Positions 213 through 49,192 of a DNA stretch of 64,000 bases are shown piece by piece. Every line of letters starts with the position of its first letter. Position 1 is the stretch's first letter. The translations under genes and the position numbers were made by a program. The stretch covers positions 1,364,001 through 1,428,000 of the forward strand of contig NC_019942.1 of the NCBI RefSeq assembly GCF_000327505.1, read 5' to 3'. The DNA is from Aciduliprofundum sp. MAR08-339. GTDB lineage: Archaea; Thermoplasmatota; Thermoplasmata; Thermoplasmatales; Aciduliprofundaceae. A model generated the notes under the pieces. The model had not been told where the DNA came from and ran no database searches. It was given only the letters and a program-made list of their open reading frames with translations.

Positions 213-2030
213 TTAGAGGTACTCCTCCAGCCCAAGTTCCTTTATCTTATCCTCAGATATCGTGCCATCTTCGTTCCAACCCCTAAGGGCATAGTACCTT
301 GGAAGCATCTCCTTCAAGCGGACAACATGGCCCTTGTTTGGACCCTCTGGCATAGGCTCCTCAGTGAGCCGCTTAGGCAAGGTATCATCCTCCAGTGGAT
401 TGAGCCCAGCCTTCAAGTTGAAAAGACGCTCTGCGTTCCATATTCTCTCTCCGATCTTAAGCCAATCTTCCGTGCTGAGGTTATAACCGAAGGCAGCGTT
501 GAGCAGGTCTCTGTAATCATCACCACCCATTCCGAAGGTGGTGAACACACACATTCCTGCAGCGTCTATGACTGCGGTTAGATCCTGGAATAGAATGAGC
601 ATCTTCACCTTCTCATCGCTGATATCGTGCGGGTCCATCTTGAACGGATAACCGAGGATCTCAGGTGAGATGAGGTACGCCTTTATATGGTCTCCACCGC
701 GATTGTCCGTCGCGTATCCAAGTCCATGACCCTCTGCCCCCCTGGGATCATACGCAGGAAGCTCCTGCTTCTTCACTCCCATGAAGCAATCAACACATCC
801 GTACTTCTCAGCGAGTCTGTAACCACCTTCTGCGAGTATGGCACCAAACCCTTCACGTCTCGCAATTTTTGGTATGTAGTAATGCAGAACCTCGGTGTTT
901 CCCCATCTGAATGGAGGGGCATCTCCAAGATCCTCCTGTTTCAAATATCCCTGGTCGTAGAGTTCCATGGCCGTTGCCAGCGTGCCTCCTGTGGATATTG
1001 TGTCAAGCCCATACTCATCGCACATGTGGTTTGCTTCAATTATGCTGGCCAGATCATTTATGCCGAGATTGGCACCGAGGGCCCATGTGCTCTCATACTC
1101 AGGTCCCTCAGTTTCACCTACTGTATCCATATCGTTAACACGGCCACACCCTATGGGGCAGGCGTAGCATGGCTTGTTTCTCTTCAGGTACTTCTTTGCC
1201 ATGGCCTCTCCGCTCTGCTCCTCCGCATATTCAAACTGCCCGTAACGGAAATTGCGTGTTGGATACAGGCCATTCTGATTGATTATGTTCACCAGTACTG
1301 CGGTGCCGTAGGATGGCAAACCCTGTCCAGCGACCGGGTCCTTTTTGAGTATCTCCGTCTTCTCACGCACCACACTTATGAACTTGCTTCTGTCAATCAC
1401 CTCAACACGCTTATGCCCCCGTACCACGATGGCCTTGAGTTTCTTTGAGCCCATAACTGCACCCACTCCTCCCCTTGCAGCTGCCCTGTGGCCATTGTTC
1501 ATTATTGCAGAGAACTTAACAAGATTCTCCCCCGCAGGACCTATGGACGCAATCTGGACATGCTTGTCTCCAAACTCCTCCGTTAGAATCTTCTCCGTCT
1601 CACTCACCCTCTTTCCCCATACATGCGAGGCATCCCTTATCTCAACCTTCTCATCCTCAATGCGCAGATAAACGGGCTTGTCGCTCTTTCCTTCAATGAT
1701 CAACATATCCCATCCAGACATCTTAAGTTCCGCGCCAAAAAATCCTCCAGAGTTGGCCATTGCAATGAAGCCGGTAAGAGGACTCTTCGTTATAACCATG
1801 TACCTTCCGCCGGTGGGTGCAGTTGTGCCCGTGAGCGCTCCTGTGGAGAAAATAAGCTTGTTTTCCTCGCCCAGAGGGTCCGCTTTGGGATCCATCTCCT
1901 TTAGAAGATAGTGTATGCCGAAACCCCTCGTGCCGAGCCATTTTTTAACAAATTCCTCATTAAAACTCTCCGTTTTTATCTCTCCCGTGCTAAGGTTCAC
2001 TCTAAGTATCTTACCCCAATATCCATACAT
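213..2030 (-). CDS. aor: Tungsten-dependent aldehyde:ferredoxin oxidoreductase
   Basis: Oxidises aldehydes to carboxylic acids with ferredoxin as electron acceptor, using a tungstopterin and a [4Fe-4S] cluster; in anaerobic archaea it clears aldehydes formed from 2-keto acids. The protein is about 605 residues, the usual AOR length. It begins with the family-typical YGYWGKILRVNL segment. The cluster ligands are visible as CYACPIGC near residue 286-293, with a fourth Cys near 493 (GMCVF). The frame extends upstream to 2054, but ATG at 2030 has a good ribosome site (AGGTGA, four bases away) and matches the family N-terminus. The wtp-type transporter near 45 kb is the obvious metal supplier. It stands alone, divergent from nadE. 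Confidence 0.93.
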   Translation of the reverse strand: MYGYWGKILRVNLSTGEIKTESFNEEFVKKWLGTRGFGIHYLLKEMDPKADPLGEENKLIFSTGALTGTTAPTGGRYMVITKSPLTGFIAMANSGGFFGAELKMSGWDMLIIEGKSDKPVYLRIEDEKVEIRDASHVWGKRVSETEKILTEEFGDKHVQIASIGPAGENLVKFSAIMNNGHRAAARGGVGAVMGSKKLKAIVVRGHKRVEVIDRSKFISVVREKTEILKKDPVAGQGLPSYGTAVLVNIINQNGLYPTRNFRYGQFEYAEEQSGEAMAKKYLKRNKPCYACPIGCGRVNDMDTVGETEGPEYESTWALGANLGINDLASIIEANHMCDEYGLDTISTGGTLATAMELYDQGYLKQEDLGDAPPFRWGNTEVLHYYIPKIARREGFGAILAEGGYRLAEKYGCVDCFMGVKKQELPAYDPRGAEGHGLGYATDNRGGDHIKAYLISPEILGYPFKMDPHDISDEKVKMLILFQDLTAVIDAAGMCVFTTFGMGGDDYRDLLNAAFGYNLSTEDWLKIGERIWNAERLFNLKAGLNPLEDDTLPKRLTEEPMPEGPNKGHVVRLKEMLPRYYALRGWNEDGTISEDKIKELGLEEYL

Positions 2031-2134
2031 CAAATCACCTCTTTGACAAGCCATACCATGGCAGAAGACATTAATTTAATTTTCCACATGCTTGATAAAA
2101 CATAACGAATTTCACAGGTGGAAGAATATTCAAA

Positions 2135-43974: not shown

Positions 43975-44409
43975 TCACAACAGGGTCATAACAGCTATAC
44001 CTGCAAATATCAGAAGCATGCCAAGGATCTTGGTAGTGGATAATTTCTCACCTATCAAAAAGTATGCAAAAAGAGCAACTATGAAGGCGTTGGATGCAGA
44101 TATCGCAACCGTTGGCCCTGCAGGACCCTTGCTAAGGGCAATCTTTATTGAGTACATACCAATGGCAAGCGCAAATCCGGCAAATATGGGTAGGAGAAGA
44201 TAAAGTGGAGGTGTGGCTCTCAAATTGCTCTGAAAAGTTCCCTGATACCAGAAATACCCAAGAAATGCAAGCCCCATCAGCCCAACGGCTAGCCATAGAA
44301 TTACTGATGTGAATATACTGTCCATATTATAATATCCGGCCATCTTTACCAGAAAATTCGTCAAACCGAACATCAACATGGTTATGAGCGCATATACCCA
44401 CCACTGCAT
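43975..44409 (-). CDS. EamA/DMT-family small transporter
   Basis: 144 residues with five hydrophobic helices (about 3-24, 32-55, 70-90, 96-118 and 122-142), forming a single EamA repeat. The C-terminal FLIGEKLSTTKILGMLLIFAGIAVM is typical of the family, and GPAGPTVAISASNAFIVALFAYF is the paired helix motif. Single-repeat members dimerise; the substrate is unknown. It is divergent from the tungstate/molybdate operon across a 78-base region holding the ModE-like site. Confidence 0.85.
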   Translation of the reverse strand: MQWWVYALITMLMFGLTNFLVKMAGYYNMDSIFTSVILWLAVGLMGLAFLGYFWYQGTFQSNLRATPPLYLLLPIFAGFALAIGMYSIKIALSKGPAGPTVAISASNAFIVALFAYFLIGEKLSTTKILGMLLIFAGIAVMTLL

Positions 44410-44452
44410 AGAACCCGTATCGGGAAGTAGGATAAAAATTTAAGTAGAGTTT

Positions 44453-44476
44453 CGTTATATCCAATTGAACATAACG
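44453..44476. promoter_or_regulatory. ModE-like operator upstream of the tungstate/molybdate ABC operon
   Basis: The sequence is CGTTATAT-N10-ATAACG. Its outer CGTTAT/ATAACG arms are a perfect inverted repeat, and the form and spacing match the bacterial ModE operator as I remember it from E. coli modABC. It ends 11 bases before the wtpA start and lies just downstream of A/T elements (ATAAAAATTTAAG, 44432-44444), so bound protein should block transcription. No modE gene is in the window. Confidence 0.7.
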
Positions 44477-44487
44477 GAGGTATGAAC

Positions 44488-45477
44488 ATGAGAAGAATGG
44501 TGGGTGTGATTGCAATAGTGATACTCCTGCTGGGGGTGGCCATAGGGTATTACTACATTTCTGTACAGAATTCATCGGAGAAAAGCATAAGAATTCTCGC
44601 AGCAGGAAGTCTGGCCGTACCCCTAAAGGATATGGCCTCAAAATTTGAGAAGGAATACGGAATCAAGGTATACATAGAAACTGCTGGAAGCATACAGACA
44701 GTTAAGAAGGTTAGTGAACTTGGAGTTAGAGCGGATATCGTGGCTGTAGCGGACTACATGGCCATAAAATCCTATCTCATTCCCAAATACACGAACTGGT
44801 ACATAAAATTCGCAAAAAACGAACTTGTTATAGTCTATACAAACCACAGCAGGTACTCATCCATAATAAATTCCACAAACTGGATGAGCATACTCCAGAA
44901 AAGGGATGTTCGCATAGGATTCTCATCACCCAACGACGATCCATGCGGATACCGGGCTGTGATGCTTTTCTATCTGGCCCAGTTAAAGTACGACACGGGA
45001 GTTTTCAATAACATCATACTCAACAACACAGGCATGAGAGTAGAAAACGGGACAATAATAGTGCCCCCGGATTCTTCCCTTCTGAAATCCACAGGGAAAA
45101 TATTCATAAAACAGAAATCTGTGGATCTGCTTGCTGATGTTGAAAGCGGAAACATAGATTACGCCATTGAGTACCTCTCTGTGGCAAAACAGCACCACCT
45201 AAACTACGTACGCCTATCAGATTACGTGAATCTGGCAAATTCATCCCTGACTTCATGGTACCAACATGCCAAGGTTAAACTGGCAGATGGCAGGATCATG
45301 CAGGGAAGACCTATAAATTACGCACTTACCGTGCCATTCAACGCTCCGCACAAGGATTACGCCTACAAGTTCGTGAATTTCCTTCTTGGAAATGAGGGAA
45401 AGAATATATTGGAAAAGTGCGGACAGGAGCCCATATACGAAGAATACGGAAACGTTCCACAGGAGGTCAAGCGTTGA
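44488..45477 (+). CDS. wtpA: Tungstate/molybdate-binding protein (WtpA/ModA)
   Basis: Extracellular lipid- or membrane-anchored receptor that hands tungstate/molybdate to the transporter. About 329 residues: N-terminal hydrophobic signal/anchor (MVGVIAIVILLLGVAIGYYY), then the periplasmic-binding fold with ILAAGSLAVPLKDMASKFEKEYG near 34 and IGFSSPNDDPCGYRA near 148, typical of WtpA. Start: ATG 44488 sits six bases after GGAGGT, while the upstream in-frame ATG at 44482 directly abuts it. First gene of a three-gene operon with a ModE-like operator. Confidence 0.9.
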   Translation: MRRMVGVIAIVILLLGVAIGYYYISVQNSSEKSIRILAAGSLAVPLKDMASKFEKEYGIKVYIETAGSIQTVKKVSELGVRADIVAVADYMAIKSYLIPKYTNWYIKFAKNELVIVYTNHSRYSSIINSTNWMSILQKRDVRIGFSSPNDDPCGYRAVMLFYLAQLKYDTGVFNNIILNNTGMRVENGTIIVPPDSSLLKSTGKIFIKQKSVDLLADVESGNIDYAIEYLSVAKQHHLNYVRLSDYVNLANSSLTSWYQHAKVKLADGRIMQGRPINYALTVPFNAPHKDYAYKFVNFLLGNEGKNILEKCGQEPIYEEYGNVPQEVKR

Positions 45478-46451
45478 AAAACTATGCATTTCCCCTTCTC
45501 ATTATTCTTTTAACCGCCATGTTCTTTGGCTCTATCCCATTTCTCGCAGTGCTATTTTTATCCACATTTCTTTTGATCTTGAAATCCAGAGACTGGAGAT
45601 ACATCATAGCCATAGCCCTTGGATTTCTGTGCATTATAAACCCCATACTTGGGCTGGTCTCAATACTGGCACTTATCCTTTTCTTGGAGCAGGATAATTT
45701 CTACCGTGCCGCATATCTCGCTGGCTCATTTTTCATCGTATTTATTTTGTTCCCAATACTCAATTTGCTCCTTTATTTCTCTCCATCTTCCATATACGAT
45801 TCCTCACTCATAAACTCCATAATGGTGAGTTTTGTTGCATCCACCGCCTCAACTCTCATAGCGCTCGTCTTTGCCCTTCCTCTGGGCTACGTACTTGCAA
45901 GAAAAAAATTCCCGGGAAAGAGTGTTGTTGAAAGCATAATAGACCTACCAATTGTGATCCCTCACACCGTTGCGGGTATAATTCTGCTGCTTGTGTTTGG
46001 CCTCTCGGGGATATGGGGCGCACCCCTTGAGGAACTTGGGGTAAGATTTTACTACGCCATGCCGGGTATAATTGTGGCGATGTTGTTCGTAAGCGCCCCC
46101 TTTCTCATAAATCAGGTGAAAGAAGGTGTCAAAAAAATAGATGAGAGGTACGAGTTCATAGCCATGAATCTGGGTGCCTCCCGGGCAAGGGCCTTCATGG
46201 ATGTGATCATACCTCAAATAAAGGGCAACATAATGACGGGCGCGGTAAACACCTGGGCTAGGGCCATAAGCGAGTTTGGTGCCGTTATGATGATCGCCTT
46301 CTATCCCATGGTGGCTCCCACTTACATCTATTTCCTGTACACAAATTACGGGCTTAGCAGGGCACTCCCAGCCACGGCATTTCTGCTGCTTCTAACCCTT
46401 GGGGTATTTCTGGGTATGCGCTTTGCATCGGAGAGGATGAAAAATGCTTGA
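45474..46451 (+). CDS. wtpB: Tungstate/molybdate ABC transporter permease
   Basis: 325-residue inner-membrane component. The first ~90 residues add three hydrophobic helices, before the core permease of about six helices. The EAA-type loop that contacts the ATPase reads EFIAMNLGASRARAFMDVIIPQIKG near 245-265. The likely start is TTG 45474 with AGGAGG seven bases upstream, overlapping the wtpA stop (TTGA); the open frame goes back to 45417. It overlaps wtpC by eight bases. Confidence 0.9.
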   Translation: MKNYAFPLLIILLTAMFFGSIPFLAVLFLSTFLLILKSRDWRYIIAIALGFLCIINPILGLVSILALILFLEQDNFYRAAYLAGSFFIVFILFPILNLLLYFSPSSIYDSSLINSIMVSFVASTASTLIALVFALPLGYVLARKKFPGKSVVESIIDLPIVIPHTVAGIILLLVFGLSGIWGAPLEELGVRFYYAMPGIIVAMLFVSAPFLINQVKEGVKKIDERYEFIAMNLGASRARAFMDVIIPQIKGNIMTGAVNTWARAISEFGAVMMIAFYPMVAPTYIYFLYTNYGLSRALPATAFLLLLTLGVFLGMRFASERMKNA

Positions 46452-47490
46452 GATAAAAGACCTGAAGGTGAAGGTGGGCGAGTTCAATATTGATGTGAAA
46501 AAACTGAAACTTGAAGATAGGGATTATCTCATCATTGTTGGTCCTACTGGAGCGGGAAAGACAGTGCTTCTGGAAACCATTGCAGGATTTTACACTCCAA
46601 TTAAGGGCAAGATCATATTGAACGGAAAGGATATAACAGCTTCACCACCCAACAGGAGGGAGATATCCATAGTTTATCAGGATTACATGCTCTTTCCCCA
46701 TATGACCGTGAGGGAGAACATAGAGTACCCTCTGAAATTGAGAAAGATAAATGGGAATGTGGAAGAACTTGCCAGAAAACTTGGAATAGAGAAACTTTTG
46801 GATAGATACCCTCCCACCTTGAGTGGCGGGGAGTTACAGCGTGCAGCAATTGCCAGAGCGGTTATCCTAAAGCCCAAACTTCTGCTTCTTGACGAGCCAT
46901 TCAGCGCTTTGGATCCAAAGATGCGTGATTCTGCCCGAGCACTTGTAAGGGATTTCATAGCAGAACTTGGAATTGATACCATTCATGTGACCCATGATTT
47001 CTCGGATGCATGGGTCATAGGAAATAAACTGGCAGTTATGAGAGATGGGCAAATAGTAAGATACGGCCCTGTTGATGAAGTATTTGCAGATCCACGGAAC
47101 GATTTTGTTGCATCTTTCCTTGGCTCTACAAACATTCTCAACGGAAGAGTGGTGGAAAATGATGACCTGACAAAAATAAAAATAAACGGAATAGCAGTAT
47201 TCACGGTGGATTCTGCACAGATTGGAAGGAGGGTGCTCTTATCCGTAAGACCTGAAAACATCGTACTATCAAAGGAAGAACCCCGCGGATCACAGAGAAA
47301 TGTGCTCTTGCTTGAAATCAAAGGTATGAGAAAGGAGGGTCACATAGTTTGGATAGATCTGGGAAATGAGAATCTGAACCTTAAGGCCATTCTAACTCCG
47401 AATGCCGTGGAAAGCATGGGTCTCACCGTGGGAATGCGAGTATACACATCGTTCAAGGCATCTGCCACAAGGATAGTGAGGGTACTATAG
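46444..47490 (+). CDS. wtpC: Tungstate/molybdate ABC transporter ATPase
   Basis: 348 residues. Walker A GPTGAGKT near 34, Q-loop YQDYMLFPHM near 78, signature LSGGELQRAAIARA near 123-136, Walker B LLLLDEPFSALD near 143-155, H-loop THVTHDFSD near 178. The C-terminus has an OB-like TOBE/MOP region, usual in ModC/WtpC, which can bind oxyanions. Together with wtpA and wtpB it imports the metal for enzymes such as AOR. Confidence 0.93.
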   Translation: MLEIKDLKVKVGEFNIDVKKLKLEDRDYLIIVGPTGAGKTVLLETIAGFYTPIKGKIILNGKDITASPPNRREISIVYQDYMLFPHMTVRENIEYPLKLRKINGNVEELARKLGIEKLLDRYPPTLSGGELQRAAIARAVILKPKLLLLDEPFSALDPKMRDSARALVRDFIAELGIDTIHVTHDFSDAWVIGNKLAVMRDGQIVRYGPVDEVFADPRNDFVASFLGSTNILNGRVVENDDLTKIKINGIAVFTVDSAQIGRRVLLSVRPENIVLSKEEPRGSQRNVLLLEIKGMRKEGHIVWIDLGNENLNLKAILTPNAVESMGLTVGMRVYTSFKASATRIVRVL

Positions 47491-47592: not shown

Positions 47593-48132
47593 ATGAAGTA
47601 TCTTGCTCTGGACATAATAACACTAATCCTGGCAATTTTGGGATTTGCCTACTTTTATGGAGATCTCATCTCTGGAAACTTCAACACTCTCGCCCTCATA
47701 TATTTCGTTATCCTAGCAATTGGATACTTTGGCGCCATCCACATGCTCCACATAGGCACAAAAAGATTGATTGAAAAACTTGCAGAAGATATGAACTGCC
47801 AGTTCATAGATTCTGGGAAATATGCATTGAGCCACCGCATAAAATGCAAGGATATGATCATAGAATTCAATCTGAGGGGAAGTTACACCCCGGCCTCTAT
47901 TCACATCTCCATGTTCGGAAAGTTTCATGAGGCAGATATAAGGGGTGGTGATAAAAAATCCAGAAAATTTGCAGAAAAACTTCAGAGATTGCAGAAAAAG
48001 TGGAGAGTTCGCGTTAATGATGCATACGTTTCGGAAGAGAAGGCAGAGGCAATAATAACCAAGTTTCCCTACGATGAAGAAAAATTGAAGGGCATAATTG
48101 AAGAATTCAGGCAAATCGTGATCAGGGTATGA
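47593..48132 (+). CDS. Two-helix membrane protein, unknown
   Basis: About 179 residues: two hydrophobic helices near 4-21 (LALDIITLILAILGFAYF) and 34-52, followed by a cytoplasmic alpha/beta part of about 120 residues with many Lys/Arg and an HRIKCKDMIIEFNLRGSYTPASIHISMF beta region. I know no family. ATG 47593 is 25 bases from CTTAAATTTT, so the leaderless start is preferred over 47551. It overlaps the convergent radical SAM gene by 11 bases. Confidence 0.7.
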   Translation: MKYLALDIITLILAILGFAYFYGDLISGNFNTLALIYFVILAIGYFGAIHMLHIGTKRLIEKLAEDMNCQFIDSGKYALSHRIKCKDMIIEFNLRGSYTPASIHISMFGKFHEADIRGGDKKSRKFAEKLQRLQKKWRVRVNDAYVSEEKAEAIITKFPYDEEKLKGIIEEFRQIVIRV

Positions 48133-49192
48133 TCTCCGTGGTGTTGTTGAAGGCCGGGTAATAAAAATCCTCCTTTTTGTACATTCCCTCCTCAATCAAG
48201 TTCTCTATGACCTCTCTTGCCCTTTTCATTTCCCCCACAAGATGCCTCACTGTGCCGCATATTTTATTGAAACCCTCCATACCCCAGTATCTCTCCTTGT
48301 TGGCAAATAGACATCTACCCCCACAGATTGGGTATATATCGCAGGACTTGCACGGTTCATCCACATCCACCGAGTTTCTTAGCTCCTTCGGTGTTTTATT
48401 CCATATATCACCCAGGTTATTCCACTCGTACTCGCCTCCTATGGGGCAGGCTAAAATTCTCCCATCCGTTGTTATGGCAAATGCATCCCTTCCCGCACCA
48501 CATGGTAAACCATCCTCTTGAAACAGCATTCTCTTTATCACGCCCTGAAAAGGCACAATACCAGGAATATTGCTCCTTTCAATCTCTCCAATCCACCAAT
48601 CCGTAAGGCGCGTTATTCCGGGATTGTATGAATTGCGAACCCATGCGTCAAAATCGTGCCACGAATCATCGGGTGCCCACACCACGTTGAGTTGCCAGTG
48701 CACATGGTCAAATGGAAGGGTTAGAAGATGCATAACATCCCTGTATATGTCACTCTCCTCGCTCACAGCCATTCGGGCTATTAAATCTCCGCCGTAGTAT
48801 GGACGAATTCTTCTCACCCTGTCCACAACCATATCGTAAACCCCACTACCACGGTAGAAATCGGTGACCTCACGTGGACCATCAATTGAAACGAGAATTG
48901 CATCAAGGCGATTTAGGTAATCCTCCGGTATTTTATGCAAAAAAAAGCCGTTTGTCTGCACCACGAATCTCTTAGCAGGAACCGAGTCCATAATCTCCAT
49001 CATCACCTTCAAGCGCAGGGTGGGCTCACCACCGTAAAAGGCCACAATTGCATCGGGATCCTCCATAATAAAATTCTTTAAATTATCAATACTGTACTGT
49101 ATCTCGTGGGGCATCACCTCTTCTGGAATGGTGCCTCCACAGTACCTGCAATGCAGATTACAAACCCCGGTAAGGAACACTATGTAAAGCAT
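48122..49192 (-). CDS. Radical SAM/SPASM protein, AF1577-like peptide-modifying family
   Basis: 356 residues. The radical SAM cluster motif is CNLHCRYC at residues 11-18; GGEPTL near 53 and VSIDGPREV near 106 follow. The C-terminal SPASM region has ICGGRC near 294 with several further cysteines (CGAGRD, CPIGGEY, CKSC). This arrangement matches the family annotated as putative peptide-modifying maturase in archaea. The substrate is unknown and no Cys-rich small peptide gene was found beside it. A TATA-like AATAATTAAT lies about 25 bases upstream of ATG 49192. Confidence 0.85.
   Translation of the reverse strand: MLYIVFLTGVCNLHCRYCGGTIPEEVMPHEIQYSIDNLKNFIMEDPDAIVAFYGGEPTLRLKVMMEIMDSVPAKRFVVQTNGFFLHKIPEDYLNRLDAILVSIDGPREVTDFYRGSGVYDMVVDRVRRIRPYYGGDLIARMAVSEESDIYRDVMHLLTLPFDHVHWQLNVVWAPDDSWHDFDAWVRNSYNPGITRLTDWWIGEIERSNIPGIVPFQGVIKRMLFQEDGLPCGAGRDAFAITTDGRILACPIGGEYEWNNLGDIWNKTPKELRNSVDVDEPCKSCDIYPICGGRCLFANKERYWGMEGFNKICGTVRHLVGEMKRAREVIENLIEEGMYKKEDFYYPAFNNTTEIIP

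Follow-up and report, generated by a model that had tools for sequence, protein, structure and literature searches.

A ModE-type operator at wtpABC in Aciduliprofundum and a ModE-Nudix fusion protein as its likely regulator

Introduction

The promoter of a tungstate/molybdate transporter operon in the archaeon Aciduliprofundum sp. MAR08-339 contains a palindrome resembling the ModE operator of Escherichia coli, raising the questions of whether the element is a true ModE-type operator, which genes share it, which protein binds it, and what signal that protein reads. Bacterial ModE reads molybdate directly. The window analyzed here is a stretch of 64,000 nucleotides (positions 1,364,001 to 1,428,000 of NC_019942.1), for which an initial annotation, made from the sequence alone, had described a "bacterial-type" ModE operator in front of wtpABC. 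It had also predicted a ModE-like regulator, to be sought as an HTH protein with MOP domains, and had raised possible co-regulation of a divergent EamA transporter gene.

Results

Operator and promoter of wtpABC

The pattern CGTTATAT-N10-ATAACG is matched without mismatch in the wtpA promoter, and the genome scan called for by the initial annotation found no second exact match in the single-contig genome of 1,437,090 bp (Table 1). Matches with two to three mismatches occur genome-wide at or below chance (49/36, versus 86/82 for a reversed-pattern control); those with two mismatches that were examined are mostly intragenic, and one with three mismatches is the moaA site described below. The 5′ end of the operator lies shortly past the TATA-like box and its 3′ end falls at the wtpA Shine-Dalgarno sequence. 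The element covers the transcription start region, which is where archaeal repressors usually act.

The likeness to the E. coli modABC site was examined by reading the modA operator from NC_000913.3 (CGTTATATTGTCGCCTACATAACG, ending ~20 bp before modA). This operator matches the same pattern with no mismatches and in the same 24-bp frame, so the spacing given by the initial annotation is correct; a weight matrix derived from wtpA sites gives the E. coli operator and the window site the same score, 21.8 bits. The term "bacterial-type" overstates the novelty of the site, since a conserved ModE DNA element in archaea was reportedly described by Studholme and Pau in 2003, as the title of their paper indicates.

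Table 1. Features of the wtpABC and aldehyde:ferredoxin oxidoreductase (AOR) loci, in window coordinates
Feature	Position	Strand	Evidence and remarks
Paralogue a of AOR, a tungsten enzyme family; putative member of the regulon	213..2054	-	PF02730 and PF01314 far above cut-off; likely start ~2030
Second predicted operator, CGTTATGTTTTATCAAGCATGTGG, before AOR gene	2084..2107	-	13.5 bits, second-best matrix match in the window; 5′ of its putative TATA box, an activator position
Divergent gene for a single-domain EamA transporter; candidate regulon member	43975..44409	-	PF00892
TATA-like box of wtpABC promoter (ATTTAAGTA; AAATTTAAGTA)	44436..44446	+	Sequence; position relative to operator conserved in relatives
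ModE-type operator of wtpABC, CGTTATATCCAATTGAACATAACG	44453..44476	.	Exact match; follows the TATA box and precedes the Shine-Dalgarno sequence, a repressor position
wtpA-like tungstate/molybdate-binding protein	44482..45477	+	TIGR03730, 314.8 bits (cut-off 242.75; above)
wtpB-like permease	45474..46451	+	PF00528; NF040839 at 258.2 bits, under its cut-off of 340
wtpC-like ATPase	46444..47490	+	PF03459 TOBE, sole TOBE domain of the genome; NF040840 at 355.7 bits, under its cut-off of 440

The assignment of the downstream operon holds for WtpA, which exceeds its family cut-off; the permease and ATPase score below theirs and are designated WtpB-like and WtpC-like only. A gene for a TIGR04084-family radical SAM/SPASM protein (window positions 48122-49192) adjoins the operon on the opposite strand.

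Co-regulation of the EamA gene is not supported: the gene is adjacent to wtpA only in the genus itself and in one further genome (G005), and the operator is conserved without it. An AT-rich box common to the EamA gene and wtpA could nevertheless serve both directions. In another genome (G011, L149:2022-2045), only a decayed remnant of wtpA is left, with wtpB and wtpC apparently lost, and the operator persists as an orphan with the divergent EamA gene beside it. This arrangement is suggestive of EamA membership, but may also reflect recent decay.

Conservation and predicted regulon

A wtpA gene was identified in 13 family genomes, that of Aciduliprofundum sp. MAR08-339 included, and the palindrome is located just upstream in all of them, with zero to four mismatches; two genomes from another family of the order (G027 and G030) have it with two mismatches. 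The position of the operator within the family's wtpA promoters is nearly invariant, with its center 22.5 bp downstream of the TATA center in 12 of 13 cases, the window site among them, and 21.5 bp downstream in the other.

A pattern search in relatives gave further sites, located before moaA, AOR genes, and a second, ModA-like transporter. As an independent test, the weight matrix, trained on nine wtpA sites only, was run over the sequences preceding moaA and every AOR gene retrieved, with shuffled upstream regions as a control (0.18% of 3,900 reach 12 bits). Sites of 12-22 bits, ending at or near the start codon, precede moaA in 13/13 genomes of the family; the site in Aciduliprofundum sp. 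MAR08-339 is CGTTATGCTCTATTAGGTACATCG. All ten family promoters tested for AOR paralogue a have a site (12.6-19.8 bits), as do the four loci scored for paralogue c (12.9-23.6 bits), for which a pattern search added sites in G004, G010, and G015. The remaining AOR paralogues of the family, which serve as internal controls, score below 8 bits, and no site was found by the matrix upstream of moaA in family f4. Based on these scores, four sites are assigned to the Aciduliprofundum genome, at wtpABC, moaA, and two AOR genes, and at the level of sequence these sites constitute a predicted molybdenum/tungsten regulon.

The element combines a palindrome of E. coli modA spacing with a location in promoters of molybdenum/tungsten transport and cofactor genes that is conserved in orthologues, and comparative sequence data confirm the wtpA palindrome as a ModE-type operator present beyond chance. 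That it is a fortuitous match, as the chance-level frequency of looser matches might be taken to imply, is ruled out by its conservation in relatives, together with its exactness and its recurrence at moaA and AOR genes. In four genomes (G007, G008, G010, and G012; L144, L147, L150, and L152), the second, ModA-like ABC transporter is likewise preceded by a ModE-type operator of its own.

To propose a direction of regulation, operator positions were compared with candidate promoter elements. At wtpABC and moaA, the operator follows the TATA box and precedes the start codon, where a bound regulator would block transcription. At AOR genes, a TATA-like box mostly follows 20-33 bp downstream of the operator center, an arrangement in which the regulator would activate the two AOR genes; these boxes are of uneven quality, and the activator position depends on them. 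Site position thus suggests that a single regulator may repress metal uptake and cofactor synthesis and activate the metal enzymes.

The ModE-Nudix fusion protein

Only one PF00126 (HTH_1) match in the genome is above the cut-off, all others being sub-threshold fragments of 20-26 residues. It belongs to a protein of 235 residues (genome C1:1272290-1272994) in which a ModE-type helix-turn-helix (HTH) domain (residues ~1-100; ModE_repress, TIGR00637, E=1.4e-22) is followed by a Nudix domain (residues ~105-230; NUDIX, 9e-22). The HTH scores 79.6 bits, below the NCBIfam curated cut-off of 98.5. Its recognition helix (SYRHAW, versus SYKSAW in E. coli) is conserved along with the glycine-rich wing. 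Sequence relatives in the PDB include ModE (1b9m and 2ijl), which aligns with the N-terminal half, and Nudix proteins, which align with the C-terminal half. Structure prediction gives high confidence for each domain (mean pLDDT 88) but not for the domain arrangement (pTM 0.57), and the best PDB matches of the model are Nudix proteins, including 3gz8, an NrtR Nudix domain with ADP-ribose.

The regulator foreseen by the initial annotation was therefore recovered in its DNA-binding part, as the sole ModE-type HTH of the genome, with a conserved recognition helix, but not in its sensor part: a Nudix domain stands where the C-terminal MOP (TOBE) domains of ModE would be. The proposed scan for an HTH protein with MOP domains returned no such protein; no TOBE/MOP domain was found in the genome outside WtpC, nor, in the family and in f4, outside genes of transporter-ATPase size or contig fragments. 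The initial annotation had stated that its reading would fail if the genome lacked a ModE homologue and the palindrome were not conserved; a ModE-type HTH is present, and the palindrome is conserved upstream of orthologous transporters.

Of 17 aligned orthologues, 16 retain an intact Nudix motif, some with serine in place of the final glycine; the motif is also intact in all 13 proteins from other families, one of which has alanine at that position. An invariant proline follows 15 residues past the motif. The Nudix half shares ~60% identity with unfused homologues from DPANN archaea and other Thermoplasmata. The fused gene is located beside rpoA2/nusA-type genes and adjoins no regulon gene; the 14 upstream regions scored for it, a further internal control, all stay below 2 bits in the weight matrix, with no site that would indicate autoregulation.

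Several known systems share part of this architecture. Archaeal ADP-ribose pyrophosphatase-like hydrolases have the Nudix domain, which here is fused to a DNA-binding domain. In the NrtR family, including AraR of Bacteroides, a Nudix domain, presumably the ligand sensor, is likewise joined to a winged HTH, but there the Nudix domain is N-terminal to the HTH and its motif is impaired (PMC4666351), whereas the fusion protein has the reverse order, a ModE-type HTH, and an intact catalytic motif. Single-HTH ModE proteins of Desulfovibrio also lack MOP domains and are predicted to control molybdenum transport; in that case the HTH stands alone and no sites of the E. coli type were found (Rodionov et al. 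2004, PMC545781).

In the open-access literature, only unrelated papers were retrieved for a ModE-Nudix protein, and no mention was found of the Nudix fusion or of a wtp/moaA/AOR regulon in the Aciduliprofundum group; the modABC genes of Methanosarcinales have been described as under ModE control (PMC9765008). ModE boxes in archaea have been published before, and the Nudix-fused regulator is what is new.

Distribution in the phylum

Within the family and in f4, every genome in which a ModE-type HTH was detected has exactly one, always as the Nudix fusion. No ModE HTH was detected in two draft genomes of the family (71% and 79% complete); in the 71% complete assembly of G017, the operator is present and the fusion was not detected. 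In the phylum as a whole, the ModE-type HTH was found in 79 of 391 sampled genomes, in none of them above the curated cut-off.

A wider search allowing one mismatch covered 16 genomes that encode a ModE protein and 14 that do not. Sites were found in G283 before tupA and moaA, in G317 before moaA, and in G061, which has the MOP type, before tupA. Two distant families pair the fusion with operators at moaA or tupA. In genomes without ModE, no molybdenum/tungsten gene was found downstream of the pattern matches whose surroundings were inspected; one match, in G361, lies near a secreted-protein gene. In several fusion genomes no one-mismatch site was found, which suggests that the operator may have drifted there.

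Reading of the proteins places the Nudix fusion in no fewer than 12 of the phylum's families. In G061 the HTH is joined to MOP domains, and in other genomes it stands alone or has an unassigned C-terminal domain, so that operator and regulon type appear constant as the sensor changes, a clear natural example of sensor swapping at a constant DNA site. At L229, L236, and L238, in distant members of the phylum, the ModE-type HTH is combined with a third, unassigned C-terminal domain, by eye neither MOP nor Nudix. In families f2, f3, and f5 of the order (L036-L040), in which no WtpA was found, the Nudix half is kept and the N-terminal HTH is degenerate or unrecognizable, possibly signifying loss of the regulatory role.

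Discussion

The operator and its regulon, with the ModE-Nudix fusion protein as their regulator, form a reading that is considered likely, leaving the ligand aside. Such a system would have much in common with E. coli ModE/modABC, namely the 24-bp palindrome layout, the ModE-type winged HTH, targets comprising a molybdenum/tungsten transporter, moaA, and molybdenum/tungsten enzymes, and the occurrence of repressor and activator positions within one regulon. It would differ in the replacement of the MOP domains by a C-terminal Nudix domain, in the archaeal promoter, and in the presence of tungsten AOR genes among the targets. In the proposed mechanism, the fused protein would bind CGTTAT-N12-ATAACG as a dimer, block transcription from the interval between TATA box and start codon at wtpABC and moaA, and activate the two AOR genes from upstream of their TATA-like boxes. 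With the sensor part exchanged for a Nudix domain, the cell may sense metal supply indirectly, and the metal signal would probably be read through a ligand of this domain. Counting against this reading are the HTH score below the cut-off, the unlinked position of the fused gene and its lack of an operator of its own, the operator without a detected fusion in G017, the fusion genomes with no one-mismatch site, the lack of a moaA site in f4, and the uneven quality of the TATA-like boxes at the AOR genes.

An ADP-X type nucleotide, either ADP-ribose or an adenylylated molybdopterin intermediate, is a plausible ligand, given the intact Nudix motif and the invariant proline near the ADP-ribose indicator position. 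The first option, in which the fusion protein binds the operator and responds, like bacterial NrtR, to ADP-ribose or to some other nucleotide derived from NAD, would tie the molybdenum/tungsten genes to NAD/redox status instead of metal. The fold search ranks the ADP-ribose-bound NrtR Nudix domain and NadM ADP-ribose pyrophosphatases among the best matches, and the protein has a weak match to an ADPR-responsive repressor model. The proline, 15 residues past the motif, is close to position 16, the reported mark of ADP-ribose enzymes (PMC10311068), but one residue off the rule. Moreover, the Nudix motif, impaired in NrtR-type regulators (PMC4666351), is intact here, the regulon consists of molybdenum/tungsten genes, and the shared sites yielded no NAD genes. 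This option is regarded as possible, if somewhat unlikely.

The second nucleotide, adenylylated molybdopterin (MPT-AMP), is made by MoaB and consumed on metal insertion (PMC3896444). It is an ADP-X compound and, by hypothesis, should accumulate when molybdenum or tungsten is scarce. A ModE protein with its MOP domains replaced by an intact Nudix domain could then read metal supply through MPT-AMP and hydrolyze its own signal, resetting itself; this specific scheme is proposed with low confidence.

Oxyanions mimic phosphate, which would favor a third option, direct binding of tungstate or molybdate by the fused protein, perhaps at the pyrophosphate/metal site of the Nudix domain, making it a metal sensor like ModE with a different pocket. 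The operator and the type of regulon are the same as those of ModE, as such a sensor would imply, but the fused protein has no MOP/TOBE domain, and a standard catalytic Nudix motif would be an unusual oxyanion receptor. Direct binding is considered unlikely.

A different reading leaves the operator to another, unrecognized regulator and gives ModE-Nudix a separate role, as might be expected from a gene unlinked to the regulon and from G017, where the operator is present and the fusion was not detected. It is quite improbable, in that the element matches the ModE site of E. coli, the fusion is the sole ModE-type HTH in every operator-bearing genome in which one was detected, the same fusion-operator pairing recurs in two distant families, and the remaining HTH_1 matches of the Aciduliprofundum genome are short sub-threshold fragments.

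The tungsten regulon of Aciduliprofundum (wtpABC, moaA, and two AOR genes) becomes predictable, and the system offers a direct way to ask if a nucleotide reports metal status to the cell. At the second operator of the window, an NAD synthetase-like gene (NadE, assigned by eye; positions 2092-2958) and the AOR gene diverge from a common operator region, which may be relevant should the Nudix domain respond to nucleotides related to NAD.
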